Source of the DNA: a virus
DNA length: 29,314 nucleotides
IMG/VR virus record: IMGVR_UViG_3300010334_000198
Location: 1-29,314 of that record
Reading direction: 5' to 3' (one strand)
In this document: piece by piece, positions 1,749 to 21,753 of the stretch
Numbering within the stretch: position 1 is the stretch's first letter
Layout: each line of letters begins with the position of its first letter
Notes under the pieces: generated by a model
What the model saw: the letters and a program-made list of their open reading frames with translations, nothing else
Told to the model about the DNA's origin: nothing
The model's database searches: none
Position numbers and translations under genes: made by a program

Positions 1749-3446
1749 GTGATCAAAAACATAATTGCTATATATCCAGGACGCTTCCAGCCATTCGGAA
1801 GGCACCACGCAGAGTCTTTTAATTGGCTTGCTTCTAAGTTTGGTAAAGACAAATCTTATATAGCTACCTCAGACGTAGTTAACCTTCCAAAAAGTCCACT
1901 TAATTTTAAAGAAAAGCAAGAGATTATAAGCAAATACGGACTTGGCAAAAATTTAGTTCAAGTAAAAAATCCGTATAAGGCTGAAGAAATCACTCAAAAG
2001 TACGATCCAAAGACCACTGCGATAGTTTTCATGGTTGGAGAGAAAGATATGAAGGAAGATCCTCGCTTTAAGATAGGAAAAAAGAAAGACGGTGGAGATT
2101 CTTACTTTCAAGAGTACAAACCCGGAATGAAAATGCAAGGCTACATGGAACATGGCTATTTAATAGTTGCTCCGCACACTTCTTACGACATTACAGGATT
2201 CGGTGAGATGAGCGGAACTACTATTAGACAAGCTTTATCTTCTAAATCCACACCAGAACAATACAAAAAATTATTTACCGATATCTTTGGTTGGTACGAT
2301 CCAAAAATAGCCGACATGTTGAAAAAAAAATTCTCTCAATCTAATAGTTTAAAAGAATCTATTAGCTTTGAGAAATCTCTTATACTAGAGTACTTAGTTT
2401 ACAACTTATTAAACGAAGGAGGAGCAGCTGGACACATGGCACACCCTTTCGATATTCCTTCAGTAAAAACAGGTAAAGATTTGTTAAGTGTATTCCAAAA
2501 AACTGGAGATTTTTTAACAAAGAATTCAGTTCCAGTAAAAATAGACGGAGTAAACGCTTCTATTAGATTGGCTAAAGTAGACGGAAAGACTCAGTTCGTA
2601 ATGGATAGAGGTTCTAATAAGCCTTTAGACGTTAAAGGCGTTACTTCTAAAGATCTTACTGATAGATTCGGAGAAGGACACGGCATGATTAGAATAGGCG
2701 GTAAAGTATTAGAGATATTCAACAAGACTTTACCCTCTATCAAAGGAGAATTGGAATCTTTGGGCATGCTAAACGATCCTAACAAGATGTTTAATATAGA
2801 ATATGTAGAAGGAAAATCAAACGTTCAAGAGTACGAGAGTAATTTCTTAGCAATACACAATATACTAGAACTTGAAAGAGTGAGTCCTACAAAAAGAGTT
2901 ACCAAAGAAGTCTCTTATAATAAAAAAGCATTGGCAGAACTTATTAAGAAGGTAAACCCAGTCGCTAAAAAGTATGAATTTGAAGTGATGGGAGAAATTC
3001 CAGCCAAATTAAAAACGAAACCTAACTTCGCCTCAGCTCTTTCTAAAAATTACACAGTAGTTTTAACAAAAGGAAAGAAAGAAACCAAATCATTGAACGA
3101 TTGGTTGAATGGAGCTAAAAATACCAAAGGTTTAAAGCTAAAGTTAAAAGACGGCAAAACTGTTGATGCACTAAGCAAGCAAGTATTCATATGGATAATG
3201 GATGGAAAACCAGTTGATCAATTGGTATCAGATATGAAAGACGCTAAAATAGCAATAGATTCATTTGTAATATACAATGCTACAATGTATTTAGGCGACG
3301 TAATACTAGACTCTTTAACTTCTCCATTGGGCGATGTTAAAGATCAAGAGGGAATTGTGGTTAGAGACAAGGCTGTATACGATAAGCCTTACAAAATAAC
3401 TGGATCTTTTATATTAAGAGGTCTTCAAACCGCTTTTGGAAAATAA
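1749..3446 (+). CDS. Bifunctional protein: nucleotidyltransferase domain fused to a DNA/RNA-ligase-like domain
   Basis: 565 residues, GTG start directly after an in-frame TAA; the first beta strand begins at residue 3, which supports this start. Residues 1-200 look like a NadM/NMN-adenylyltransferase-type domain: YPGRFQPFGRHH (9-20) and a C-terminal SGTTIR motif near 155-160. The canonical HxGH is changed to G17-R-H-H20, so the first His is lost. Residues about 224-565 look like a covalent nucleotidyltransferase (ligase) fold: K264-I-D-G motif I, NIEYVEG as a possible motif III, E534-GIVVR motif IV, and KPYK (546-549) as a motif V candidate. Between the two lies LVYNLLNE (ending at E223) followed by GGAAGHM, resembling a gp21-cleaved capsid-targeting peptide. 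Role inferred: NAD or nucleic-acid repair chemistry. Substrate unknown; activity of the first domain is doubtful. Confidence 0.72.
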   Translation: MIKNIIAIYPGRFQPFGRHHAESFNWLASKFGKDKSYIATSDVVNLPKSPLNFKEKQEIISKYGLGKNLVQVKNPYKAEEITQKYDPKTTAIVFMVGEKDMKEDPRFKIGKKKDGGDSYFQEYKPGMKMQGYMEHGYLIVAPHTSYDITGFGEMSGTTIRQALSSKSTPEQYKKLFTDIFGWYDPKIADMLKKKFSQSNSLKESISFEKSLILEYLVYNLLNEGGAAGHMAHPFDIPSVKTGKDLLSVFQKTGDFLTKNSVPVKIDGVNASIRLAKVDGKTQFVMDRGSNKPLDVKGVTSKDLTDRFGEGHGMIRIGGKVLEIFNKTLPSIKGELESLGMLNDPNKMFNIEYVEGKSNVQEYESNFLAIHNILELERVSPTKRVTKEVSYNKKALAELIKKVNPVAKKYEFEVMGEIPAKLKTKPNFASALSKNYTVVLTKGKKETKSLNDWLNGAKNTKGLKLKLKDGKTVDALSKQVFIWIMDGKPVDQLVSDMKDAKIAIDSFVIYNATMYLGDVILDSLTSPLGDVKDQEGIVVRDKAVYDKPYKITGSFILRGLQTAFGK

Positions 3447-3447
3447 T

Positions 3448-3858
3448 ATGACTGCAAAAGAAAAAATAGCATTACTACAAGATTTCGTGGAATACTGCGA
3501 AAACGCTTTAGATATAAAGAATCTACCAAAGATAAAATTTGTTTTTGATAGACAATGGGCTACTAACATGCACAGCTTTGGTAGATATAGAAATGGAGAA
3601 AGAGACGTGACTGTTTACATGAGAAACAGAAACATGGCAGATGTACTTAGAACTCTTGCACACGAACTAGTACATCACAAACAAAATGAATTAGGTAAAT
3701 TAAAACCTGATAGCGGTTCTACAGGATCAGATATAGAGAATGAGGCTAACGTAAAAGCCGGAATCCTAATGAGAGACTTCGGAAAAGAGCGAGAAGAGAT
3801 ATACGAATCCCAAACTATAAAGTTGGGAAATCTACTAAAAGAAATAAAAAGAAAGTAA
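3448..3858 (+). CDS. Zincin-type metallopeptidase (HExxH) with a C-terminal capsid-targeting-like tail
   Basis: 136 residues from the ATG in the TAATATG junction with the previous gene; a TTG 12 bases upstream would overlap that gene and is less likely. The core carries LAHELVHHKQ with H72-E73-x-x-H76, the zinc-binding and catalytic motif of zincins, and ENEA (E97/E99) about 20 residues later as a probable third ligand. The short size and absence of a signal peptide suggest a cytoplasmic or packaged SprT/minimal-zincin-like enzyme; the family is not certain. The last 15 residues (TIKLGNLLKEIKRK) nearly repeat the N-terminus of the gene at 5460 (MIKLGNLLNEI). That peptide type normally sits at N-termini, so its position at the C-terminus is odd. 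It shares a transcription unit with its neighbours. Confidence 0.75.
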   Translation: MTAKEKIALLQDFVEYCENALDIKNLPKIKFVFDRQWATNMHSFGRYRNGERDVTVYMRNRNMADVLRTLAHELVHHKQNELGKLKPDSGSTGSDIENEANVKAGILMRDFGKEREEIYESQTIKLGNLLKEIKRK

Positions 3859-3859
3859 T

Positions 3860-4432
3860 ATGGAACAATCAGTTTTGAAAAAAGAGTTTAGCAAGAAAGA
3901 TGTTCAGAGAATGAGGAACATTATTGGTGGTAAAACAGGAGATGCTACGCAGACTCTTGCAGGTTGGGAAAAGAAATCTATAGATCATACAGAAGGAGAC
4001 GTTTGGGAAGAAGATGGACGCACTTGGACTATAAAGAGTGGAATTAAGCAGAACGTTACCAAACTAGACGGCATAAAAAAGATGGTGGTATTACCAATAG
4101 CTTGTCCCAATTGTGGTAAGCACATGAAAATCACAGAAGCCAATAAAAAAATGTACTCAATTCACAGCATGTGCTTAGATTGCGTGGTTAAAATGGAAGG
4201 CAAGATAAAAGCAACAGGTGGATGGGAGGAATATGAAAGAGGAATGGTTAAAGCCAACGCCGCGGCAAGTTTGATAGATTTTGAAAACGCAGTAGACGCA
4301 TGGTATAAAGAAAAAGATTCGTTTGTATCGGAATCAGGAGAGATAGAAAGTTGGGGAGGCGGAGATAAAAAGAAGATATACGAAGAAATTAAAGCAAAAT
4401 TAGAAGAGATCAAAAGTTCCGATATTTATTAA
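3860..4432 (+). CDS. Zinc-ribbon protein of unknown function
   Basis: 190 residues, ATG in a TAATATGG junction one base after the previous stop. Two CxxC pairs, C82-PN-C85 and C105-LD-C108, form a probable zinc ribbon in mid-protein. The N-terminal third is basic (KKEFSKKDVQRMRN) and contains DVWEEDGRTWTIKSGIKQN, a motif I recall from T4-like marine phage hypotheticals but cannot name. The C-terminal third is helical and charged (KKKIYEEIKAKLEEIKSS). A nucleic-acid-binding or protein-binding role is possible, but the sequence does not decide. The stop overlaps a promoter-like element that precedes the next gene. Confidence 0.7.
   Translation: MEQSVLKKEFSKKDVQRMRNIIGGKTGDATQTLAGWEKKSIDHTEGDVWEEDGRTWTIKSGIKQNVTKLDGIKKMVVLPIACPNCGKHMKITEANKKMYSIHSMCLDCVVKMEGKIKATGGWEEYERGMVKANAAASLIDFENAVDAWYKEKDSFVSESGEIESWGGGDKKKIYEEIKAKLEEIKSSDIY
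4422..4431 (+). promoter_or_regulatory. Putative promoter element ATATTTATTA (copy 2)
   Basis: ATATTTATTA preceded by G, identical over 11 bases to copy 1, overlapping the last codons of the zinc-ribbon gene and 16 bases before the ATG at 4448. It would serve the run of genes 4448-10004. Confidence 0.5.
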
Positions 4433-4447
4433 TAAAATTTTTTATAA

Positions 4448-5092
4448 ATGCCAGCGGTATCTAAAAAGCAACAAAAATTCATGGGAATTGTTCATGGATT
4501 GCAAAAAGGAACAGTAAAACCTTCAGAGGTATCTAAAAAAGCACAAAACGTAGCAAAACAAATGAAACCATCATCAGCAACTGACTTCGCGGCCACAAAA
4601 CATAAAGGCCTTCCTACAAAAGCCAAAAAAATTAAAAAAGAAAGCATAGACGGAGCTATCGATACTTTATACATGGTTAAAAAGCCTTACGCTGGCTGTG
4701 AATTGACTTCGTTAGTTCATCCAATCGATCCTTTATTGGGCATCGGAGCAGGTCATCAAGTAGTTCCAGATCAAGTTCACGCTGTATTTGCCGACCAAGA
4801 TCATGCGCAACAAGTAGCTCAAGACCTTTTTGAAGAACACTCTCAAAAAATGGAAGCTTTAGAAGAAAAGAAAGGCGCAGTAACAGGCAAAATCTCTTCA
4901 GCTATCGACTCTTTAGAGAAGAAAAGAAAGGAACACGTTGATTTGGCTAAAGCAGATCCTAAAAACGCATCACAACACAAAGAACACATCGCTAAATTAG
5001 CTACGAAGATAGACGATTTAATGAGTAAGCTTGAAAGAGTTGAAAAATCAAAGAAAGCTAAGCAAGACGATTCTAAAAAAAATAAAAAATAA
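4448..5092 (+). CDS. DUF3008-like protein with a C-terminal coiled coil
   Basis: 214 residues. Residues 1-60 (starting MPAVSKKQQKFMGIVHGLQ and ending DFAATKHKGLP) match my memory of the small DUF3008 family found in bacteria and phages, whose function is unknown. Residues about 75-130 form a globular part with several His (HPIDPLLGIGAGHQ, HAVFADQDHAQQ). Residues 135-214 are Lys/Glu-rich and predicted to be a coiled coil ending in a strongly basic tail. The basic character fits an internal head or DNA-binding protein, which is inference. No Shine-Dalgarno; the start is preceded by TTTTTTATAA. A promoter-like element lies 16 bases upstream. Confidence 0.72.
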   Translation: MPAVSKKQQKFMGIVHGLQKGTVKPSEVSKKAQNVAKQMKPSSATDFAATKHKGLPTKAKKIKKESIDGAIDTLYMVKKPYAGCELTSLVHPIDPLLGIGAGHQVVPDQVHAVFADQDHAQQVAQDLFEEHSQKMEALEEKKGAVTGKISSAIDSLEKKRKEHVDLAKADPKNASQHKEHIAKLATKIDDLMSKLERVEKSKKAKQDDSKKNKK

Positions 5093-5097
5093 CAAAA

Positions 5098-5460
5098 ATG
5101 GATCAATTCTCAACACTAATCGGAACTTTGATGCAAAGCCGCAATCAGGCTCACATCTATCACTTACAAACTGAATCTTTTGCAGCGCATGCAGCATTGA
5201 ATACATACTATGATGAGATTGTTGAGCTATTTGATGGCTTAGTTGAGTCTTATCAAGGTCGCTATGGTATTTTAAGAAACTATAAAATGGCGGGAGCTAT
5301 CAAAGAAGACGACAATCCTATTGTTTACTTCGAAGCGCTTACAAAATTCGTAGAAACAATAAGAATGAAATGTCCTCAAGACTCTTATATTCAAAATCAG
5401 ATCGATACTGTAGTTGAATTATTAGAATCTACCAAATATAAATTAATATATTTGCACTAA
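5098..5460 (+). CDS. Dps/ferritin-like small helical protein
   Basis: 120 residues, all helical by appearance. Residues 19-43 have H19, H22, H31, D39, E40 and E43 in a pattern (AHIYHLQTESFAAHAALN then YYDEIVELFDG) resembling the ferroxidase-site helices of Dps/ferritin-like proteins. A phage family of this kind (DUF5856, from memory) shares this look. Possible role: iron or peroxide protection of DNA, or a structural four-helix bundle; this is inference. The protein is shorter than typical Dps (about 160), so the later helices may be reduced. The stop TAA overlaps the next ATG (TAATG), suggesting translational coupling to the gene at 5460. Confidence 0.62.
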   Translation: MDQFSTLIGTLMQSRNQAHIYHLQTESFAAHAALNTYYDEIVELFDGLVESYQGRYGILRNYKMAGAIKEDDNPIVYFEALTKFVETIRMKCPQDSYIQNQIDTVVELLESTKYKLIYLH

Positions 5461-5846
5461 TGATAAAATTAGGTAACCTATTAAACGAAATATTACAAGA
5501 AAAGTCTTGTTGGAGAGGATATGTCGCTAAAGGTACCAAGAAAAAAGGAGATAGAACAGTTCCTAACTGCGTTCCTTTAGAAGAGGAAGAGCAATTAGAA
5601 GAAGCCGAATATCACGGTAGAAAAGTTACTCTTAATAAACCGTTTCTAACTCCTGATGGACCTAAAAAGCGATCAGTATACGTTAAGAACGATAAAGGAA
5701 ACGTAGTTAAAGTAAATTTCGGTCAAAAAGGAGTCGCAATTAAGAAACACTTACCTAAACATAGAAAATCTTATAGAGCAAGACACGGATGTAGTAATCC
5801 TGGACCAAAATGGAAAGCAAATTATTGGAGTTGTAAAGCCTGGTAA
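5460..5846 (+). CDS. Small Cys-containing mosaic protein with a capsid-targeting-like N-terminus
   Basis: 128 residues, start overlapping the previous stop by one base. The N-terminus MIKLGNLLNE|IL resembles T4 internal-protein targeting peptides cleaved by gp21 after Glu. Then follow two small modules: CWRGYVAKGTKKKGDRTVPNC (17-37) and a C-terminal block from about EYHGRKVTLNKPF to the end that includes ARHGC, NPGPKWKANYW and SCKAW. Four Cys and several His could bind a metal. I recall the second module as a recurring domain of unknown function in marine T4-like phages, often attached to other proteins. The protein is strongly basic. A packaged DNA-associated role is inference. Confidence 0.7.
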   Translation: MIKLGNLLNEILQEKSCWRGYVAKGTKKKGDRTVPNCVPLEEEEQLEEAEYHGRKVTLNKPFLTPDGPKKRSVYVKNDKGNVVKVNFGQKGVAIKKHLPKHRKSYRARHGCSNPGPKWKANYWSCKAW

Positions 5847-5849
5847 ATT

Positions 5850-6530
5850 ATGATAAAATTATTAGACATACTATTAGAAATGGGAGCGGCTACAATAAAG
5901 CCAATCATGCATTTGTACGATGAAGATCCAAAAGCGGTTTCATCTATTATATTTCCAAACAATCCAAATGCTTCTAGAGAAGAGGTAGAACACGAATTGA
6001 TGGCTGCTTCTTACGAAGATTTCACTCAATACAGAGATGAATTGGGAATAGAAATAGAGGAAGCAGAAAGAACTAAAGCTGGAAGAAAGGTAAACAAAGC
6101 CTATCTTACCAAGAATAAGTCAGCAATGAAAGGAGAGATAGACAGAGTAGCTAAATTAAGCAACGATGATCCCTCAGCTTACACAAAATGGGACGCAGAT
6201 TACGCAGACAAAGACAAAAAGAAACCTTACAAGACCAAAAAATCAGTAGCAACCTCAGCTTACGAAAAAAGATTCGGAGAAAGTATTAACGAAGGAGACG
6301 CAGATACAGCACTATCAAATAAAGCAAAAGCAACCGGCATATCAAAAACAGTTTTAAGAGGCGTATACGATAAAGGCTTAGCTGCTTGGAAAACTGGGCA
6401 CAGACCTGGAGTTGGACAACATCAGTGGGCAATGGCAAGAGTTAATTCTTTTGTAACTGGAAAGGGCGGTGCTAGAAAAGCAGACAAAGGTTTATGGAAA
6501 AAAGCAAGCAAATCGAAAAATAAAAAATAA
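5850..6530 (+). CDS. Basic mosaic protein (possible DUF5824 module) with a capsid-targeting-like N-terminus
   Basis: 226 residues. The N-terminus MIKLLDILLE|MGAAT is of the L-x-x-E targeting type. Residues about 15-70 are acidic. A second module begins KAGRKVNKAYLTKNKSAMKG and runs to AYEKRFGES. The C-terminal 75 residues (from ALSNKAKATGISKTVLRG through WKTGHRPGVGQHQWAMARVN to WKKASKSKNKK) match a phage domain of unknown function that I believe is DUF5824, but I cannot verify the number. The basic tail suggests nucleic-acid contact. Its stop overlaps the next ATG (TAATG). Same transcription unit as its neighbours. Confidence 0.7.
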   Translation: MIKLLDILLEMGAATIKPIMHLYDEDPKAVSSIIFPNNPNASREEVEHELMAASYEDFTQYRDELGIEIEEAERTKAGRKVNKAYLTKNKSAMKGEIDRVAKLSNDDPSAYTKWDADYADKDKKKPYKTKKSVATSAYEKRFGESINEGDADTALSNKAKATGISKTVLRGVYDKGLAAWKTGHRPGVGQHQWAMARVNSFVTGKGGARKADKGLWKKASKSKNKK

Positions 6531-7372
6531 TGAAACTTACAGACTTACTTAAAGAGGCAATTTCTTACAAAAAATCAGGATTAAAGAATCCAGGCAAGGC
6601 CGATTTAAATCACGATAACGAAATCTCTTCTTACGAAAAGAAAAGAGGCGGAGCCATAGAAAAAAACATGAAAACGGAATTTAAAACACAAATACCGAAC
6701 GCTCCAACAATTAAATTTGGTAACGAAGAGAGACCCGTAGAAACAATGCCTTCTTTGAGCAGCTCAGAAATGACCACAATGGCAAATCAGTGCGAAGAGT
6801 GCGGAGCTCCAATGATGTACGAAGATAAAATGTGTATGGAGTGCGGATACATGCAAGAAGATGGCGACGCTACTTCTTTGCCATCTTCTCTTATTCCAGG
6901 ACCAGTTAAAGACGATGAGGATCAATTTTCTGAAGGAATGGATCACGAAGTTTCAATGGCAAAATCAAGCCTAAAAAATATAATAAGCAACGCAAGTCAA
7001 TTGTTAAATAAATTGGGAGACGAAGAAATTGATATTCCAGCCTGGGTTCAAGATCACATTACAAACTCAGACAATTATATTAGTCAAGCAAACGACGGAT
7101 ACTACGAATACGAATCAGAAGACGAACCTGAATACAATGACGGCGCAAGTTTACAAGATTTGATGGAGAGAAAGAAAAAGCCTTCTGCTGGTTTATCTAA
7201 AACTCAAAAATCTGCCATCGTAAAGAAAGCAAAAGCTGGTGGAGACATTGGTAAAAAAGGAAGTGGTTTTGCAGCAGTTGAAAAATCAGCAAAAGCTAGC
7301 GGAGCCGATAATCCTAAAGCAGTAGCCGCAGCAGCAATGTGGAAAGGCGCAGCAAAACGTGCACATAAATAA
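6530..7372 (+). CDS. Mosaic protein with EF-hand-like loop, zinc ribbon and capsid-targeting-like N-terminus
   Basis: 280 residues assembled from small modules. 1-9: MKLTDLLKE|A, an L-x-x-E targeting-like peptide. 25-36: D-x-N-x-D-x-E-I-x-x-x-E, a good calcium-binding EF-hand/dockerin-type loop. 88-105: CxxC-x10-CxxC zinc ribbon (CEEC and CMEC). About 140-195: MAKSSLKNIISNASQLLNKL followed by IPAWVQDHIT and NYISQANDGYYEY, a helical module I recall from many phage hypotheticals. About 215-280: AGLSKTQKSAIVKKAKAGG followed by a Lys/Ala-rich tail ending MWKGAAKRAHK. The whole combination is unusual. Function unknown; a packaged internal protein is the preferred inference. It starts in the TAATG overlap with the preceding gene. 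Confidence 0.72.
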   Translation: MKLTDLLKEAISYKKSGLKNPGKADLNHDNEISSYEKKRGGAIEKNMKTEFKTQIPNAPTIKFGNEERPVETMPSLSSSEMTTMANQCEECGAPMMYEDKMCMECGYMQEDGDATSLPSSLIPGPVKDDEDQFSEGMDHEVSMAKSSLKNIISNASQLLNKLGDEEIDIPAWVQDHITNSDNYISQANDGYYEYESEDEPEYNDGASLQDLMERKKKPSAGLSKTQKSAIVKKAKAGGDIGKKGSGFAAVEKSAKASGADNPKAVAAAAMWKGAAKRAHK

Positions 7373-7380
7373 TTATAAAC

Positions 7381-7980
7381 ATGAAACTAGACAAATTAAA
7401 AGGACACATTCCAGATTCAGTTATAGCTCAGATTCCAGGAGTGATGGAAAAATTTGATATTAATACTCCATTAAGATTGGCTCATTTCTTAGCTCAATGC
7501 GGTCATGAATCTGGCGGATTTAGATTGACAAAAGAAAACTTAAACTATTCAGCTAAAGGTTTGAATGGTATTTTTAAGAAGTACTTTCCAACATTAGAAT
7601 CGGCTTTACCATACGAAAGAAAACCCGAGAAAATTGCGAATAAGGTCTATGGCGGTAGAATGGGTAATGGTCCAGAATCAACTGGAGACGGCGCTAAATA
7701 TTGCGGTCGTGGTTACATTCAATTAACAGGAAAAGACAACTACACTGCGTTTGGAAAATCAATAAATGAAGACATCGTAGCAAATCCAACATGGGTTGCA
7801 GAAAAATACGCATTATTATCTGCAGCTTGGTTCTTCAACAAAAATAAATTACACATAATGGCTGATGGCGGTGCTACAGATGCTGTAGTTACTTCTATCA
7901 CAAAGAGAGTAAACGGCGGAACTATAGGATTACCTGATAGAATCAAACATTTCAAAGAATATCACACACTGTTATCATAA
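7381..7980 (+). CDS. GH19-family endolysin (chitinase-like muramidase)
   Basis: 199 residues, a single catalytic domain of the glycoside hydrolase 19 type, which in phages cuts peptidoglycan glycan strands. Visible motifs: HFLAQCGHESGGF with catalytic Glu candidate E43; KENLNYSAKGL with E52 as possible second acid; GDGAKYCGRGYIQLTGKDNY, the GH19 substrate-cleft signature; and SAAWFFNKNKL near the end. No signal peptide or cell-wall-binding domain, so it would need a holin or equivalent to reach the periplasm. It is embedded among putative packaged proteins, so a virion-associated role cannot be excluded, but it lacks the targeting-like N-terminus. TAATG overlap with the next gene. Confidence 0.88.
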   Translation: MKLDKLKGHIPDSVIAQIPGVMEKFDINTPLRLAHFLAQCGHESGGFRLTKENLNYSAKGLNGIFKKYFPTLESALPYERKPEKIANKVYGGRMGNGPESTGDGAKYCGRGYIQLTGKDNYTAFGKSINEDIVANPTWVAEKYALLSAAWFFNKNKLHIMADGGATDAVVTSITKRVNGGTIGLPDRIKHFKEYHTLLS

Positions 7981-10004
7981 TGAACAAAGACTTAGACATA
8001 TTAAAGGCAATTCTTTTAGAAGCTGACGAAGAAGACAACGTTAAAGACAAAGAAAAAGAAGTCGAGAAAAACGACGCGGAAGAAAAAGCCGACAGTAGAG
8101 CTAACGAAAAAGAAGACAAACCGGATTCTCCTTTCGATAAAGATCCAATGGGTTTTATTCTTAAGAAGTATCATACATTGAACGAGTTGTTAGCAGAATT
8201 AATGACTCCAGATTTCAAAGAATATATTATTGCCATATTCATTCAAGCACCAAAGCCAACTAGTTTTAAAATTGTTTTACACAACGGTCAATTTTTCTAT
8301 TTGACCTATATGATGGACGACACTTATCAAGCAATAATATCAGGTAAAAGACATTACTTATCTAGTATCGGTGAGAAAGAAAGAGCGATGAAGGGCATTA
8401 GTCGATTGCTACAACAAGGAAGTCCTTTAAAAACAAAAGGACCTGAAGGAGCAGAACAAGCCACAAGACCAGAAGGAGAAGACGACGGCAGTTTAAGCGG
8501 TGGAAATAATAATGGAGGAGGAGATCAAACTGGCGCAGAAGAAAACTCCGACAACGAACCGCTAACAGAATCAATCATACTAAAGGCTTTAATTAAAGAA
8601 GCTAAAACTCCTGACTTAAGATTAGTTTTTAACAAAGAAATGCAAGATAGTGGTCTAGAAGGAAAACCACAATCAGGACCTGCTCACATAAGATACAAAT
8701 TAGGCACAGCTCCAACAAAATCTATTACTAAAGTCGCAGATAAAGTAATTGGTAAGGGCAATTATGCAATTACAGATGAGCCTATGAAATCAAAATATTC
8801 TGCGTCCAGTAGTTACCCAACTATAAAAGTAACTGTAACAAAAGCAACCCAAAATTTCAAAAAAGGAGATTTTGTTCTTATAGTTAACCAGACCGGGGAA
8901 GATAACAAAAGTATTACCGCTAAAGCTTTAACCCCTACAAATTTGGGTATTGCTGGAGATTATAGCGATCTAAATAGTCTTGTTAAAGCTACAATAAAGG
9001 CAGTTTCAAAATATGAAAATTTAGGACCAATACTTATTGGGTTAACAAAAGATACAGATAAAAATACACCTGTATCAAAAGTTGGTCTATCTAAATTAAA
9101 AGACGGTAAAATAAATGTGCCTTTATCAAAACAAACTATACAACTATTAAGCGGCTTGTCTAAACAAGATAAGAATACTATAGGTAAAGATTTTGGAGAA
9201 GTATTAGGATCTATTTTTTTAGGTAAGCATGTTGGAATTAAGAAATACTTATCTTTTCCAAAAGGAAATGCAGATTTAGTTGATTTTTTACTTGATGGAT
9301 ATAAAATATCTTCTAAATATGAAAAAGGAGCTAGCGCATCTTTAACAGATTTATTAACAGCAATTAAACCGGATCAAATTAAAGACGATAAAGATCAAAT
9401 GGCATTATATAAAGCATTACAACCTATGCTTAAGAGTTCAAAAGAAATAAGTCCTAACGCATTCTTAAAAGTAGCTGCGTCATTTCAAAAAGATATGCCA
9501 GGTATTCAAATATTATCTAGAATTATAGGAATTGATCCAAATAATTTAAGGGCCCAAGACATTAACGATTATATTAAGCGTCTTTTTGCAAAAACAAACG
9601 CAAAATCAGCCAAACAAAAAGACGCTGTATTCTTCAAAAAATTTAATCCATTCTTCAATGAAATAAAAAGAAACCCAGGAAGCAAAGGCGGCCAAACAGT
9701 TGAATGGGAAGAGATTAAGAAAAAGAACGGTGATAGTGGTTACTACGGAGCTGTAACTTCTCCTTTCTCTTATTATGTGGCAGATCAATTAAATAAAAAA
9801 CCTCAATTTGTAAAGGCACTAAAAGAAATAGTTTCAAAAACTGAGGTTAAACAAATGTACTTGACTTTTGGTTTGGGAGAAGGTAATATGACTTTCAACA
9901 TTAGATCATTCAACGACCCTAATGCTGAGTTTAAATTCGAAATTCCAAGTTTGAGCGTTAAAAATCCAACAAGTAGCAAATTAGGTTTCTCTTTAGCTAA
10001 ATAA
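7980..10004 (+). CDS. Large putative internal protein with two targeting-like peptides and a possible PD-(D/E)XK nuclease core
   Basis: 674 residues. The N-terminus is LDILKAILLE|ADEED, then a highly acidic segment to about residue 55. A compact domain follows (55-145, MGFILKKYHTLNELLAELM and later RAMKGISRLLQQ), then a Gly/Asp/Glu-rich linker. A second peptide of the same type, SIILKALIKE|AKTPD, lies near residue 200. The C-terminal part holds GEVLGSIFLGK, then VDFLLDGYKISSKYEKGAS (D about 435, K about 445), spaced as in PD-(D/E)XK nucleases (acid, strand, xSxK). That assignment is tentative. The repeated targeting peptide suggests fusion of two packaged proteins. Codon use becomes more A/T-rich after about 8870. 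Confidence 0.65.
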   Translation: MNKDLDILKAILLEADEEDNVKDKEKEVEKNDAEEKADSRANEKEDKPDSPFDKDPMGFILKKYHTLNELLAELMTPDFKEYIIAIFIQAPKPTSFKIVLHNGQFFYLTYMMDDTYQAIISGKRHYLSSIGEKERAMKGISRLLQQGSPLKTKGPEGAEQATRPEGEDDGSLSGGNNNGGGDQTGAEENSDNEPLTESIILKALIKEAKTPDLRLVFNKEMQDSGLEGKPQSGPAHIRYKLGTAPTKSITKVADKVIGKGNYAITDEPMKSKYSASSSYPTIKVTVTKATQNFKKGDFVLIVNQTGEDNKSITAKALTPTNLGIAGDYSDLNSLVKATIKAVSKYENLGPILIGLTKDTDKNTPVSKVGLSKLKDGKINVPLSKQTIQLLSGLSKQDKNTIGKDFGEVLGSIFLGKHVGIKKYLSFPKGNADLVDFLLDGYKISSKYEKGASASLTDLLTAIKPDQIKDDKDQMALYKALQPMLKSSKEISPNAFLKVAASFQKDMPGIQILSRIIGIDPNNLRAQDINDYIKRLFAKTNAKSAKQKDAVFFKKFNPFFNEIKRNPGSKGGQTVEWEEIKKKNGDSGYYGAVTSPFSYYVADQLNKKPQFVKALKEIVSKTEVKQMYLTFGLGEGNMTFNIRSFNDPNAEFKFEIPSLSVKNPTSSKLGFSLAK

Positions 10005-10040
10005 TTGAGTACCATAAACTTTAGTTAAAAAGTATCAAGG

Positions 10041-10050
10041 ATTTTTATTA
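10041..10050 (+). promoter_or_regulatory. Putative promoter element, variant ATTTTTATTA
   Basis: ATTTTTATTA, one mismatch to the window consensus and also preceded by G, 10 bases before the ATG at 10061 and inside a 56-base gap. Weaker than the other copies. Confidence 0.35.
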
Positions 10051-10060
10051 AATTGGTTAT

Positions 10061-10285
10061 ATGAAAAAGACTACATACGGTGTCATGAAATCCATCGATG
10101 GCACAACAATTCACTACATCCAAGATCCAGGTCAGAATAGAAAACCTCACAATTTGAACGGGCCAGCAATGATTTACGCTGACGGCAAAGAGGAGTACTA
10201 TATAAACGGTCTCAAAATTACGCAATCCCAATTTACATTGTCAAATAAGAAGCGTTCCCTTAAGCAAGAGGAAGAAGAAGCTTAG
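10061..10285 (+). CDS. Small MORN-like repeat protein
   Basis: 74 residues. Contains NGPAMIYADGKEEYYINGL (about 32-50), which looks like a MORN/MORN_2-type repeat (G-P-A-x-x-Y-x-D-G-x-x-x-Y-Y-x-N-G); an earlier half-repeat DGTTIHYIQDPG precedes it. The C-terminus is charged (KKRSLKQEEEEA). Such short proteins are common in phages, usually without known function. It has its own possible promoter element and stops with TAG shortly before the next element, so it may be an independent one-gene unit. Confidence 0.68.
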   Translation: MKKTTYGVMKSIDGTTIHYIQDPGQNRKPHNLNGPAMIYADGKEEYYINGLKITQSQFTLSNKKRSLKQEEEEA

Positions 10286-16383: not shown

Positions 16384-16704
16384 ATGAAAACGCAACTTAA
16401 CGAAACAAAAAGAATGCAGCAGTTGGCTGGCATTATTAAAGAATCTGAAATAGACAAAAGTATCGAAGAAGCAGATGTAACTCCACAAGAAATTTCAGAT
16501 GAACAATTTAAAATATTTGGTGGTTTTAAACCTAGCGCGGAAAAAATAATGAGATTATTGATAACTCAAAAAATTGGAGCGCAAGAGGCAAACGATTTAA
16601 TGAAAAAATATGGTTTTACTAAATGGGACATGATTCAAGCTGGCATCAAGCTTGGACTTCAAGGAATGAAACTACCTGCTGATTTTAAAGGCTTTAAAGA
16701 TTAA
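16384..16704 (+). CDS. Small head-core-like protein with an RMQQLAGI motif
   Basis: 106 residues. The N-terminus MKTQLNETKRMQQLAGIIKE|SEIDK shares RMQxLAGI with the extreme C-terminus of the scaffold protein (RMQKLAGIK at the end of 18735-20030) and carries a possible gp21-type site after IIKE. The rest is two short helical segments (DEQFKIFGGFKPSAEKIMRL and AQEANDLMKKYGFTKWDM). Small proteins in this place in T4 (gp67, gp68) are prohead core components; equivalence is inferred from position and the shared motif, not from clear homology. Confidence 0.62.
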   Translation: MKTQLNETKRMQQLAGIIKESEIDKSIEEADVTPQEISDEQFKIFGGFKPSAEKIMRLLITQKIGAQEANDLMKKYGFTKWDMIQAGIKLGLQGMKLPADFKGFKD

Positions 16705-17949: not shown

Positions 17950-18597
17950 ATGGCAAAACAATTACTGATAGAGACGGCTTACTTTACTCCGATGGTTTCA
18001 TTGAACGAGAGTAAAAGACACACCAATGGCAACCTAATGGTTAGCGGTCAAGTACAAGCCTGCGACAAGCCAAACGCAAACAAAAGAATCTACCCTTACG
18101 AAATACTTTATACGCAAGTAGAAAAATACATCAACGGACCTATCAGAGAAAATAGAGCTTTGGGAGAATTGGACCATCCTGAGTCCACTATTATCAATTT
18201 AAAGAACGTTAGCCACAACATCGTTAAACTTTGGTGGCAGGGCAAAGATCTTTACGGTCAAATAGAAATACTACCTACACCATCAGGAAATATTCTTACT
18301 CAACTTTTTGCAAATAACATCACAGTCGGCATCTCATCAAGAGCTTTAGGATCGGTTATTCCTATTGGTGAAGGTTTGGTTCAAGTAGAAGACGACCTAG
18401 ATCTTATTTGTTGGGACTTTGTTTCCACTCCATCAACTTACGGAGCCTACATGAAGCCTGCTGCCAACCCCAGCGCACCAGGTCTTCGAGAGTCATTCGA
18501 TTTAGAATTGGCTAATGCAAATAAGTATTCAAGAGCAAGTCGTCTTATTTCAGACATTATATGTTCTCAGAGCGGAATCTGCTGTTTAAGCAAATAA
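17950..18597 (+). CDS. 21: Prohead maturation protease (gp21-like, peptidase family U9/S80-type)
   Basis: Serine protease assembled inside the prohead; it cleaves scaffold, capsid protein and internal proteins after Glu and destroys the core. 215 residues, close to T4 gp21 (212). Signature features: VSGQVQACDKPNANKRIYPY near the N-terminus; GELDHPE with H76; GISSRALGS with Ser candidates S129/S130; and LDLICWDFVSTPS. The His-Ser arrangement fits the herpes-protease-like fold of this family. The last 30 residues contain two Cys and may be removed by self-cleavage. Its presence gives the L-x-x-E peptides seen in other proteins here a plausible enzyme. Confidence 0.95.
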   Translation: MAKQLLIETAYFTPMVSLNESKRHTNGNLMVSGQVQACDKPNANKRIYPYEILYTQVEKYINGPIRENRALGELDHPESTIINLKNVSHNIVKLWWQGKDLYGQIEILPTPSGNILTQLFANNITVGISSRALGSVIPIGEGLVQVEDDLDLICWDFVSTPSTYGAYMKPAANPSAPGLRESFDLELANANKYSRASRLISDIICSQSGICCLSK

Positions 18598-18734: not shown

Positions 18735-20030
18735 ATGGAAAACTTGTACAAAGAGGCAATTGCTGACGCAAAAGCACTAAGAGCTAGCGCAATGGCTAAC
18801 GCTAAAGCTGCATTAGAAGAAGCATTCGAACCTCAATTAAGGGAAATGTTCCGCAAGACTGTCGAAGAAGCTGAAGAGATCGAAGAAGACGAAGATCTTA
18901 CAACTGACGCTGAAGACGCAGCAGAAAATCTTGAAGAAATCGACGAAATGGACGAAGCTGAAGAAATGGACGAAGCTAAGGCTGAGGAAATGGACGAAGC
19001 TGAAGAAATGGACGAAACTGAAGAGATGGATGAAACCTCTCTTGAAGAAATCTTGGGTGAACTTGAAGAATTAGCCAACGAAGGTGAAGACCACGAAGGC
19101 AAAATGGAAGAAGAGTACACAGAAGATGGAATCGAAGAAGGCGAAGACTACATGAATTACGAAGCTAAATCTGAAGAAGAAGGCGAAGACGAAGTTGAAA
19201 TGGATGACGAAGAAGAAATGGACGACGAAGAAGTTGACGGTGAAGAAGAAGAAAAAGTAATCACTATCACTTTGGGTCAATTAAAAGACATTTTAGCTCC
19301 GTATCAAGGTGAAGAAGAAGATGCAGAAGACGTTGACGACGAAGAAGCAATCGACGACATCAACTTAGACGAAATCTTTGCAGAATTAGAAGAGGCTGCT
19401 CAAGTAAAGAAAAAAGACAGCGTTATATCTACTACTGATGGCTACAAGAAAGGCGGTAAAATTCAAAAAGTATCAAAAGGAGTTTTATCGACTACTGATG
19501 GCTACGAAAAAATCGGTAAAGTTAAATCGGCATCAAACGGCGTTACAAGTACTACAGATGGCTATAAAAAAATTGCCAAAAGTAAAAAAGAAATGGAAGA
19601 GAACAAAAATTTCATTTCTCAAATAGGAAAAGCTCTTCCAGGCAGCGATGCTATGAACAGTATTGATCCAGGTCCTAGCGCTTTAACAAAATTGAAAGAA
19701 GCTAACCAAACAATTGGTTACTTACAAACTCAATTAAAAGAAGTCAATTTATTGAACGCTAAGTACTTATTCATGAACAAATTGTTTAAAGGCAAATCGT
19801 TAACTGAATCTCAAAAATTAAAAGCTATCAACGCTTTCGATAGAGCTACTACGGTTAAAGAAGTTAAGAACACGTTTGCGACATTAAGCGAATCTTTTTC
19901 TACAATTCACAAAAAATCAATCAACGAAGGTTTCGCATCACAAGCAGCTGGTATTGCGCCTAAGAGAACAGAAACGATCGAATCTGATCCTTTCATCTCT
20001 AGAATGCAAAAATTGGCTGGTATCAAATAA
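18735..20030 (+). CDS. 22: Prohead core scaffold protein (gp22-like)
   Basis: Main scaffold around which the capsid shell assembles; degraded by gp21. 431 residues, much longer than T4 gp22 (269). The N-terminal 30 residues are helical (MENLYKEAIADAKALRASAM). Residues about 40-220 are extremely acidic, with tandem E-E-M-D-E-A units. Residues about 232-290 hold three exact-period 20-residue repeats beginning STTDGY. The C-terminal 130 residues are helical (IGYLQTQLKEVNLLNAKYLF, SESQKLKAINAFD-like helix) and end in DPFISRMQKLAGIK, typical of T4-type core proteins as I recall. Position between protease and capsid protein matches T4. The extra acidic and repeat regions are the unusual part. Confidence 0.88.
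   Translation: MENLYKEAIADAKALRASAMANAKAALEEAFEPQLREMFRKTVEEAEEIEEDEDLTTDAEDAAENLEEIDEMDEAEEMDEAKAEEMDEAEEMDETEEMDETSLEEILGELEELANEGEDHEGKMEEEYTEDGIEEGEDYMNYEAKSEEEGEDEVEMDDEEEMDDEEVDGEEEEKVITITLGQLKDILAPYQGEEEDAEDVDDEEAIDDINLDEIFAELEEAAQVKKKDSVISTTDGYKKGGKIQKVSKGVLSTTDGYEKIGKVKSASNGVTSTTDGYKKIAKSKKEMEENKNFISQIGKALPGSDAMNSIDPGPSALTKLKEANQTIGYLQTQLKEVNLLNAKYLFMNKLFKGKSLTESQKLKAINAFDRATTVKEVKNTFATLSESFSTIHKKSINEGFASQAAGIAPKRTETIESDPFISRMQKLAGIK
18942..19037 (+). repeat. Acidic E-E-M-D-E-A tandem repeat coding region
   Basis: Short imperfect repeats of the GAAATGGACGAAGCTGAA type, encoding five M-D-E units with alternating Ala/Thr. They account for the antisense open frames on the other strand. 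Confidence 0.8.
19428..19607 (+). repeat. Three 60-base tandem repeats (STTDGY units) inside the scaffold gene
   Basis: Units begin at 19428, 19488 and 19548, an exact 60-base period. Each opens with Ser-Thr-Thr-Asp-Gly-Tyr and continues with a Lys/Gly-rich stretch. The third unit diverges in its second half. Confidence 0.9.
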
Positions 20031-20055: not shown

Positions 20056-21753
20056 ATGGCAAACTTAGTACAATCATTATTAAATGAGTCTGCTCAGAAC
20101 GCTCAACAAGCTCAGTTTACTGTAGCTCAGAAGCTTTCTAAGAAGTGGGCAAAATCTGGCCTTTTAGAAGGTCTAGAAGGAAACGATCAAGCAAATATGG
20201 CTATGATCTTAGAAAGTCAAGCTAAGCAATTAGTAGTTGAATCATCTACCTCTGGTGGTGGTACAACAACTGGTGCGTCTTTCACAGCTGGTAACGGTGA
20301 ACAATGGGCTGGTGTAGCTTTACCTTTAGTTCGTAAGATCTTTGGTCAAATCGCATCTAAAGAGTTCGTTTCTGTTCAACCAATGAACTTACCTGCTGGA
20401 TTAGTATTCTATTTAGATTTCCAATACGGAAACACTAAAGATCCTTTCACTGCTGGTGATTCTTTATACGGTACTCGTACAGCTAACTTCGGTAACGCTG
20501 CTGCTGGTGCTTTATACGGTGCTGGTAAATTCGGATATTCTTTAAACCAATTCTCTGTATCTGCTTCCCTAGTTAGTATCGTTTCGGCTTCTTTTTCTGA
20601 CGTTGATTACGATGCAAACTATTCTGGTTCTATATTTTTCACAACTAACGATCCTACCGCTTCAAACGTTTTAAGAAAAGTAACTTTTGCTACTTCTTCT
20701 TTAACTAACTATGATATCAACGCGGTTCGTTCTTTCATTGTGACAACTGGTTCTAGCGCTATCGCTACAGCTTTCTTATCTCCAGACAAGACTTTACAAC
20801 AATTCACTCAAGTGGTTGGTGGTAACATCGTTTTCATCGTATCTGGTTCTCAATTACAAACAACTGGTTCAGTTGGTTCTACATTCAACATTGAATACGG
20901 TAAAGCAACAGACTTTAACGTAAGAGGTGACTTTGAAGATAGAACTGCTACTCAAGGTTTCTCTGTTCCTAACGCTGCAAGTACAAGTTCAATCGTTATC
21001 CCTGAGATCAACGTTCAAATGAAGTCTCAAACAATCAGTGCTAAAACAAGAAAATTGAAAGCACAATGGACTCCAGAATTTGCTCAAGATTTAAACGCTT
21101 ATCATTCTTTAGATGCTGAAGCTGAATTAACAGGTTTATTATCTGAGTACATCTCTTTAGAGATCGACTTAGAAGTATTAGATATGTTAATCCAAAACGC
21201 TCCAACAGTTGAATATTGGTCAGCTAGAGTTGGTAATACTTTAACTGCTGGTGCTGCTGCTCCTGTTAACAACACAGCTGGTTTGTATTACAATCAAATG
21301 ACTTGGTTCCAAACAATTGGTATCAAATTACAAAAAGTTTCTAACATCATCCACCAAAGAACAATGCGCGGTGGAGCTAATTTCATGGTAGTTTCTCCAG
21401 CAGTAGCTACAATCTTGGAATCAATCCCAGGATTTGCAGCTGATACTGACGGTGCAGCAGACACAATGAAATATGCTTTCGGCGTTCAAAAAGTAGGTGC
21501 TTTAAACAGCCGCTATAAAGTGTACAAGAATCCTTACATGACTGAAAACGTTATCTTGTTAGGTTTCCGTGGTACTCAGTTCTTAGAAGCCGGAGCTGTA
21601 TACTCTCCATATGTTCCATTGATCATGACTCCATTAGTGTACGATCCAAATACCTTCACTCCAAGAAAAGGTATCATGACTCGTTACGCAATGACTATGA
21701 TAAGACCCGAGTTTTATGGTTTAGTAGTAGTAGCAGATTTATCAGTAGTTTAA
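20056..21753 (+). CDS. 23: Major capsid protein (gp23-like)
   Basis: HK97-fold shell protein. 565 residues (T4 gp23: 521). The N-terminal propeptide starts MANLVQSLLNE, and the probable gp21 cleavage site is QLVVE62|SSTSGG, very close to the T4 site after Glu65. Core segments: GEQWAGVALPLVRKIFGQIA, VSVQPMNLPAGLVFYLDFQY, TRKLKAQWTPEFAQDLNAYH, LDAEAELTGLLSEYISLEID (backbone helix), NFMVVSPAVATILESIPGF, and the C-terminal YVPLIMTPLVYDPNTFTP and RYAMTMIRPEFYG. Residues about 165-300 are Ser/Thr/Val-rich and probably form an insertion domain. Codon use is more biased (GGT, GCT, CGT, TTA) than its neighbours, fitting very high expression. A strong terminator follows 30 bases after the stop. Confidence 0.97.
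   Translation: MANLVQSLLNESAQNAQQAQFTVAQKLSKKWAKSGLLEGLEGNDQANMAMILESQAKQLVVESSTSGGGTTTGASFTAGNGEQWAGVALPLVRKIFGQIASKEFVSVQPMNLPAGLVFYLDFQYGNTKDPFTAGDSLYGTRTANFGNAAAGALYGAGKFGYSLNQFSVSASLVSIVSASFSDVDYDANYSGSIFFTTNDPTASNVLRKVTFATSSLTNYDINAVRSFIVTTGSSAIATAFLSPDKTLQQFTQVVGGNIVFIVSGSQLQTTGSVGSTFNIEYGKATDFNVRGDFEDRTATQGFSVPNAASTSSIVIPEINVQMKSQTISAKTRKLKAQWTPEFAQDLNAYHSLDAEAELTGLLSEYISLEIDLEVLDMLIQNAPTVEYWSARVGNTLTAGAAAPVNNTAGLYYNQMTWFQTIGIKLQKVSNIIHQRTMRGGANFMVVSPAVATILESIPGFAADTDGAADTMKYAFGVQKVGALNSRYKVYKNPYMTENVILLGFRGTQFLEAGAVYSPYVPLIMTPLVYDPNTFTPRKGIMTRYAMTMIRPEFYGLVVVADLSVV

Follow-up and report, generated by a model that had tools for sequence, protein, structure and literature searches.

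Targeting peptides and a scaffold-tail tag mark a probable modular head cargo in an uncultured T4-like phage

The internal protein IPIII of phage T4 opens with the peptide MKTYQEFIAE. Residues 4 and 7 of this leader are needed for targeting and residues 8 and 10 for processing, and an Asp at position 10 stops cutting while leaving targeting intact (PMC9026906). The T4 proteins Ip1-3 share homology in the leader alone (PMC12373910). Processing of Alt extends to its C-terminus (PMC9026906), and T4 uses this design to deliver Alt and anti-restriction proteins (PMC12373910, PMC9026906). In the literature consulted, docking by the T4 capsid-targeting sequence (CTS) is known only from mutation of the peptide. 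Enzymes are also reported from cyanomyovirus virions: those of S-CREM2, S-SCSM1 and S-CBWM1 include an NMNAT-like cytidylyltransferase, a kinase, an S-adenosylmethionine (SAM) hydrolase and a Cas9-like nuclease (PMC10665884, PMC9602691). Here we describe a block of genes in the IMG/VR virus record IMGVR_UViG_3300010334_000198, whose full length of 29,314 bases we call the window. The record is an uncultured virus known solely as this fragment, which is the head region of a T4-like myovirus. The block is very probably a modular head cargo, docked by short peptide tags, cleaved by a gp21-type protease and most probably ejected with the DNA.

A preliminary description of this DNA had noted that L-x-x-E peptides open several neighbouring proteins, recur inside two and resemble the start of the capsid protein. 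All of these peptides were located, and h-x-x-h-h-x-E (where h is hydrophobic) describes them better than the original pattern. The gp21 homologue named there is real, with ORF (open reading frame) 17950 matching Pfam Peptidase_S77 (E=1.7e-24) and the PHROG head maturation protease family (E=4.6e-46). Besides this S77 prohead protease, the window has a capsid protein of gp23 type. MIKLGNLLNE and MIKLLDILLE fall in the exact T4 IPIII register, with hydrophobic residues at 4, 7 and 8 and Glu at 10; MKLTDLLKE is one residue shorter, and MNKDLDILKAILLE is four residues longer. Three cases had escaped the preliminary description: a tag-like end of a zincin-like protein and two forms of a second label, on ORF 16384 and at the end of the scaffold-like ORF 18735. 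The features of the first class and the protease are as follows, with a slash at each candidate cleavage point or junction.

2397 to 2417, plus strand: internal site VYNLLNE/GG (Glu223) between the nucleotidyltransferase-like and ligase-like domains of ORF 1749-3446
3823 to 3843, plus strand: tag-like C-terminus LGNLLKE, followed by IKRK, of the zincin-like ORF 3436-3858 (HELVHH)
5460 to 5489, plus strand: N-terminal tag MIKLGNLLNE of ORF 5460-5846, with putative cleavage after Glu10 by the T4 IPIII register
5595 to 5843, plus strand: HVA1-like C-terminal module of ORF 5460, ending KWKANYWSCKAW, from sequence comparison
5850 to 5879, plus strand: N-terminal tag MIKLLDILLE of ORF 5850-6530, assigned by motif
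6276 to 6296, plus strand: internal junction FGESINE/GD before the DUF5824 module of ORF 5850, a putative second cleavage site
6297 to 6527, plus strand: DUF5824 C-terminal module of ORF 5850
6530 to 6556, plus strand: N-terminal tag MKLTDLLKE of the zinc-ribbon-like protein ORF 6530-7372
7980 to 8021, plus strand: N-terminal tag MNKDLDILKAILLE of ORF 7980-10004
8580 to 8600, plus strand: internal tag LKALIKE/AK (Glu207) of ORF 7980, the exact point of C-terminal exchange in relatives
8601 to 10001, plus strand: exchangeable C-terminal domain of ORF 7980, with a D..DGYKISSK motif
17950 to 18597, plus strand: prohead core protease of T4 gp21 type (Peptidase_S77), from Pfam and PHROG
20056 to 20088, plus strand: tag-like capsid N-terminus MANLVQSLLNE

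The capsid protein holds a second candidate site, KQLVVE/SS, that ends at residue 62; T4 gp23 is cleaved after Glu65.

The motif is concentrated at the starts of head-block proteins. When the first 22 residues of these proteins were shuffled in 2000 trials, the mean number of N-terminal matches was 0.76 and the maximum 4, compared with 6 among the 21 real ORFs. The cultured Flavobacterium phage immuto (host Flavobacterium sp. LMO8), whose capsid protein is about 65% identical to that of the window, and Microcystis phage Mel-JY01 (47%) are the closest annotated relatives. Among the annotated genes of the complete immuto genome, the motif lies within the first 22 residues in 13 of 36 head-block genes (100.8-128.6 kb), as against 1.8 after shuffling (maximum 6, 500 shuffles), whereas the first 100 kb, with 12 of 166 against 7.0, is near chance. 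Tagged immuto proteins include QQO91863 (MKKVMGNLADLLLE/ES), QQO91867 (MKKQILSEQFRRMQKLAGIITE/SQ) and QQO91870 (MKKSQLRQIIKE/AL). Counted by family, with a family called tagged when at least 60% of its distinct N-termini carry the motif, 9 of 55 families in the window's clade are tagged, against 0.73 by family-coherent shuffling (maximum 4, 300 shuffles). The gene caller was simple, and in individual genes (contig L133 gives one example) an N-terminal tag may be masked or produced by the choice of start codon.

These counts bear on whether the likeness is an artefact of the composition of AT-rich phage genes, with their Met-Lys-Ile/Leu-rich starts, compounded by common descent. The starts are indeed rich in K, I and L, and the motif is short, degenerate and present in about 4-7% of ordinary genes. 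However, shuffles that preserve composition or family coherence yield far fewer matches, and no equally strong enrichment appears in the replication genes of immuto. Moreover, the tags differ in sequence while their pattern stays constant, module breakpoints fall at the sites, and the LAGI class described below is limited to protein termini. We consider this explanation very improbable. A reading of the tags as signal peptides was rejected by eye: they contain no extended hydrophobic stretch and have charged residues along their whole length. Two further recurrent N-termini, MENxFDLKKFLVENKLTxNSxLL and MKKSQLRxIIKEAL, stand on unrelated immuto proteins, with a protease-type motif in most copies.

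Movement of the tag between unrelated domains, raised in the preliminary description, is seen in related contigs for the DUF5824 module and the ORF 7980 family. At least four upstream architectures precede the DUF5824 module, and nearly every one opens with a tag whose sequence varies while its pattern is constant. Specifically, the opener is MIKLKDILLE where the full two-part upstream region is present, MIKLANILKE or MVKLSTILKE where the second upstream part stands alone, MKLINILVE where the upstream domain is unrelated, and MINKLDILKQILILE, MIKLLDILLE or MISLLQILNE where DUF5824 directly follows the tag. In fusions of two parts, the junction reads ESINE/GD or GINE/GN, and in one contig the two halves of the protein are separate genes, each with its own tag. 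Similarly, homologues of ORF 7980 retain a domain of about 190 residues between the first tag and an internal one (LKALIKE/A, LKGLLTE/A or LKGIIME/A), behind which at least three types of C-terminal domain are found; profile comparison, from shallow alignments, revealed no similarity among the three. Homologues of ORF 1749 carry LLxE/GG at the boundary of the nucleotidyltransferase-like and ligase-like domains, or IIAE/GG in Mel-JY01. Taken together, the DUF5824 junctions, the ORF 7980 exchanges and the ORF 1749 boundary indicate that the predicted protease site coincides with module boundaries. Comparison of sequences thus documents the peptides, their positions and their exchange between proteins.

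A natural control comes from the HVA1-like module of ORF 5460, which occurs widely. It is opened by MKKFKQYIDE in the T4-like phage C48C1 and starts bare in the complete genomes Kolga, CRP-902 and CRP-235 (MAKYQG.., MATYKG.. and MAIDKA..), in which neither S77 nor Gp23 was found. Ten contigs of at least 90 kb without S77 and Gp23 carry the module with other prefixes or none, save for a tag-like start in one (L157). Records positive for S77 are mixed, with clear HVA1 tags in C48C1, G001 and L161, an Asp-ending variant in L186 and no clear tag in HTVC008M. By this comparison, the tags co-occur with the protease and the head type. In phages without detected S77 and Gp23 (L162, L172, L180, L207, L212 and others), HVA1 often stands behind MPIPxxxxxEDxxxFVSRCMGxxxM, a prefix that may be another head-related label. 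The HVA1 proteins of L161, L148 and L168 open with MK[IL]IITESQYxxLF, where the motif ends at Glu7 and a VVG[DN]LLTE/A junction adjoins.

The second class of tag, RMQxLAGI, missed by the preliminary description, is both the C-terminal tail of the scaffold-like protein and an N-terminal tag of unrelated small proteins. Both forms occur in the window.

16384 to 16443, plus strand: second-class N-terminal tag MKTQLNETKRMQQLAGIIKE/S of ORF 16384-16704
19998 to 20027, plus strand: C-terminal tail SRMQKLAGIK of the scaffold-like ORF 18735-20030, the sequence copied by the second-class tag

Among 2660 distinct proteins, RMQxLAGI is N-terminal in 15 that are mutually unrelated, C-terminal in 18 (17 of them scaffold-like) and never internal, against a shuffled expectation of about 0.3 matches. 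Two scans of 2.9 million viral contigs relied on DNA patterns alone, and their match lists overlap partly. Among the matches listed, those of the first scan were C-terminal in 64 cases, N-terminal in 15 and elsewhere in 1; those of the second comprised 34 at the C-terminus, 1 internal and 49 at the N-terminus, the last in 38 unrelated groups. Of the listed C-terminal matches that could be tested, 88 of 91 (60 of 60 and 28 of 31) have a capsid homologue no more than 2.5 kb downstream. For the N-terminal tags, the first Glu stands two residues past LAGI in 37 of the 49 listed, making h-x-x-h-h-x-E; the scaffold tail ends before the Glu position. S77 is present in 8 of 12 tested contigs with RMQxLAGI, including all eight longer than 100 kb. 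In L417, L427 and L454, a protein of 77-82 residues with no detected capsid gene adjoining it ends in the LAGI tail (EEIKKMQRLAGIIK). Searches of the open-access literature for MQKLAGI or MQQLAGI found no paper.

If the peptides instead recruited proteins to some other phage structure, such as a site of replication or lysis, or were general signals for protease processing, tagged genes outside the head block would be readily explained, and two tagged families and a few tagged immuto genes do lie there. Yet one label matches the C-terminal tail of the scaffold and the other resembles the N-terminus of the capsid protein, and tagged proteins of S-CREM2 were detected in virions. This explanation is very improbable.

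The partners of the tags are diverse. For the zincin of the preliminary description, the HEL[VT]HH motif is conserved, and the tag-like end of that protein, IKLGNLLKEIKRK (window 3823-3855), together with the C-terminal processing of T4 Alt, suggests that C-terminal tags may exist. For ORF 1749, Pfam and PHROG give weak support to the nucleotidyltransferase domain; in the ligase-like part, K-x-D-G-x-N is invariant, while no profile match was found. The C-terminal domain of ORF 7980 is possibly a nuclease of the PD-(D/E)XK type, a guess from motif for which the fold search gave no support: predicted structures of the exchangeable domains are weak (mean pLDDT, the predicted local distance difference test score, 69.8 and 49.5), a fold search of the PDB returned nothing at E<=0.001, and sequence searches of the PDB, run with A1, A2, A4 and the nucleotidyltransferase part, turned up no convincing relative. 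Scans of Pfam, PHROG and NCBIfam found no mature part matching IPI, IPII, IPIII or Alt; such homology does not define the group, because the T4 Ip1-3 proteins share the leader only.

Published virion data for S-CREM2 provide a further comparison. Table 3 of that study lists non-structural proteins detected in virion particles (PMC10665884). In the genome as we read it, Glu10 tags open the SAM hydrolase (MKDFDSFLEE), gp13 (MKDLHSFLTE), the APH-like kinase (VKRFDAFLTE), the cytidylyltransferase (MKNFSSFLTE) and gp136 (MQTFSMFFSE). The Glu10 tag is present in 5 of 28 detected non-structural proteins and in 1 of 166 undetected ones (Fisher p=2.4e-4), and the broader motif in 6 of 28 and 11 of 166, respectively (p=0.026). 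The start of gp160, GATGFTGAAAPEGPVAGYDPLMG (OR473000.1, 128342-129235), which was detected by mass spectrometry, nearly copies a segment of the phage's own capsid protein, GADGFTGAAAPGGPNAGFDPVMIG, and is a possible further case of coat mimicry.

Several points weigh against a tagged head cargo. Over all S-CREM2 proteins, the broader motif gives p=0.19, and the Glu10 test was set to the T4 register after the broader motif had already been run; the authors caution that co-purification is possible (PMC10665884). Literature searches found no virion proteome of immuto. The 163-kb contig L157, which may be a fragment, has a tag-like N-terminus with no S77 or Gp23 detected, and some T4-like homologues of the HVA1 protein, such as that of HTVC008M, lack a clear tag. 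Two of the tagged families lie outside the head block, as noted above, and several genes of the block are untagged. Within 1749-10004 these are 3860, 4448, 5098 and 7381 (endolysin), which may not be cargo; 10061, just downstream, is also untagged.

Alternatively, the tagged proteins might be docked and cleaved as components of the prohead core that serve head assembly or DNA condensation rather than as injected effectors. The T4 core also contains gp22, gp67 and gp68, several of which are processed by gp21, and IPIII influences head morphogenesis (PMC9026906). Several tagged proteins of the window are small and Lys-rich, and ORF 16384 sits among head genes. However, some tagged or fused partners resemble enzymes (the nucleotidyltransferase, and the zincin with its conserved motif), virion enzymes of S-CREM2 are tagged, and the swapping of domains behind the tag suits host-directed functions better than assembly. 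We regard a role in assembly alone as unlikely.

Comparison strongly favors head targeting and then cutting by the gp21-type protease: position, register, family statistics, the exchange of tags and domains, the natural control and the virion proteome of a relative all point to it. Delivery with the DNA, which the preliminary description had also proposed, would follow by analogy with T4, as would an effector function. We infer the loading, cleavage, ejection and function of the window's cargo as follows. Short amphipathic peptides, mostly N-terminal, would dock unrelated proteins onto the prohead core, and the protease would cut after the Glu of h-x-x-h-h-x-E, freeing the mature proteins inside the head; cutting at internal sites would split multidomain precursors into separate parts. 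The first label (MIKLxxLLxE) resembles the T4 CTS and the capsid N-terminus, and the second (KRMQxLAGI[IL]xE) copies the scaffold C-terminal tail. Cargo peptides would then copy existing contacts between coat and scaffold, and the freed cargo would stay in the head with the DNA, with which it would most probably be ejected to act early in the new host. We somewhat favor the broader hypothesis that cargo loading in a large uncultured T4-like group is mimicry of the coat-scaffold interface, such that either label plus a gp21 site could make any protein a cargo and internal sites could create exchangeable effector cassettes, as in the ORF 7980 exchanges.

The window runs from an SbcC-like protein through the cargo block (1749-10285), a terminase (11006), a portal-like protein (12617) and several small head genes to the protease (17950), the scaffold-like protein (18735) and the gp23-type capsid protein (20056). 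The window, immuto and Mel-JY01 agree in gene order: nucleotidyltransferase, small genes, terminase, protease, scaffold and capsid. Elsewhere in immuto, positions 18607-37015 hold an annotated pathway for 7-deazaguanine DNA modification (QueC, QueD, QueE, FolE, QueF and DpdA).

For uncultured T4-like phages of marine and fresh waters, whose head-packaged proteins are mostly annotated as hypothetical, the tags provide a simple rule by which such proteins can be found from sequence. They may also account for enzymes already detected in the virions of cyanophages. The scaffold-tail tag hints at how cargo is docked in the prohead, and the two natural labels could be used to load phage heads with proteins of choice.

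The preliminary description had proposed a new set of injected effectors tied together by one tag; a mobile capsid-targeting leader is already known from the internal proteins of T-even phages and is not new in principle. Three features are new as far as the open-access literature was searched: a tag that matches the tail of the scaffold, internal sites at the points where domains are exchanged, and the recognition that virion enzymes already described carry tags. Like T4 IPI-IPIII and Alt (PMC9026906; PMC12373910; PMC9391042), the system of the window has an N-terminal peptide of ten residues, hydrophobic at 4, 7 and 8 and with Glu at 10, an S77 protease, and one label on unrelated mature proteins, whose packaging and injection are probable here. 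Unlike that of T4, its cargo is larger, more varied and encoded beside the terminase and head genes, multidomain precursors appear to be split at repeated internal sites, which also mark where domains are exchanged, one of the two labels is a copy of the scaffold tail, and the hosts are probably not enterobacteria. The cyanomyoviruses likewise carry nucleotidyltransferase-type proteins within virions, we recognize the tag in S-CREM2, and gp160 of that phage shares a CWxGY..GTKK module; however, their sequences are only distantly related to the window, and the parts of the reports consulted describe no tag or packaging mechanism (PMC10665884, PMC9602691). Finally, SPN3US and phiKZ, a different phage group that we liken by description, also eject many head proteins, some of them cleaved by a prohead protease (PMC5694885, PMC7411985).

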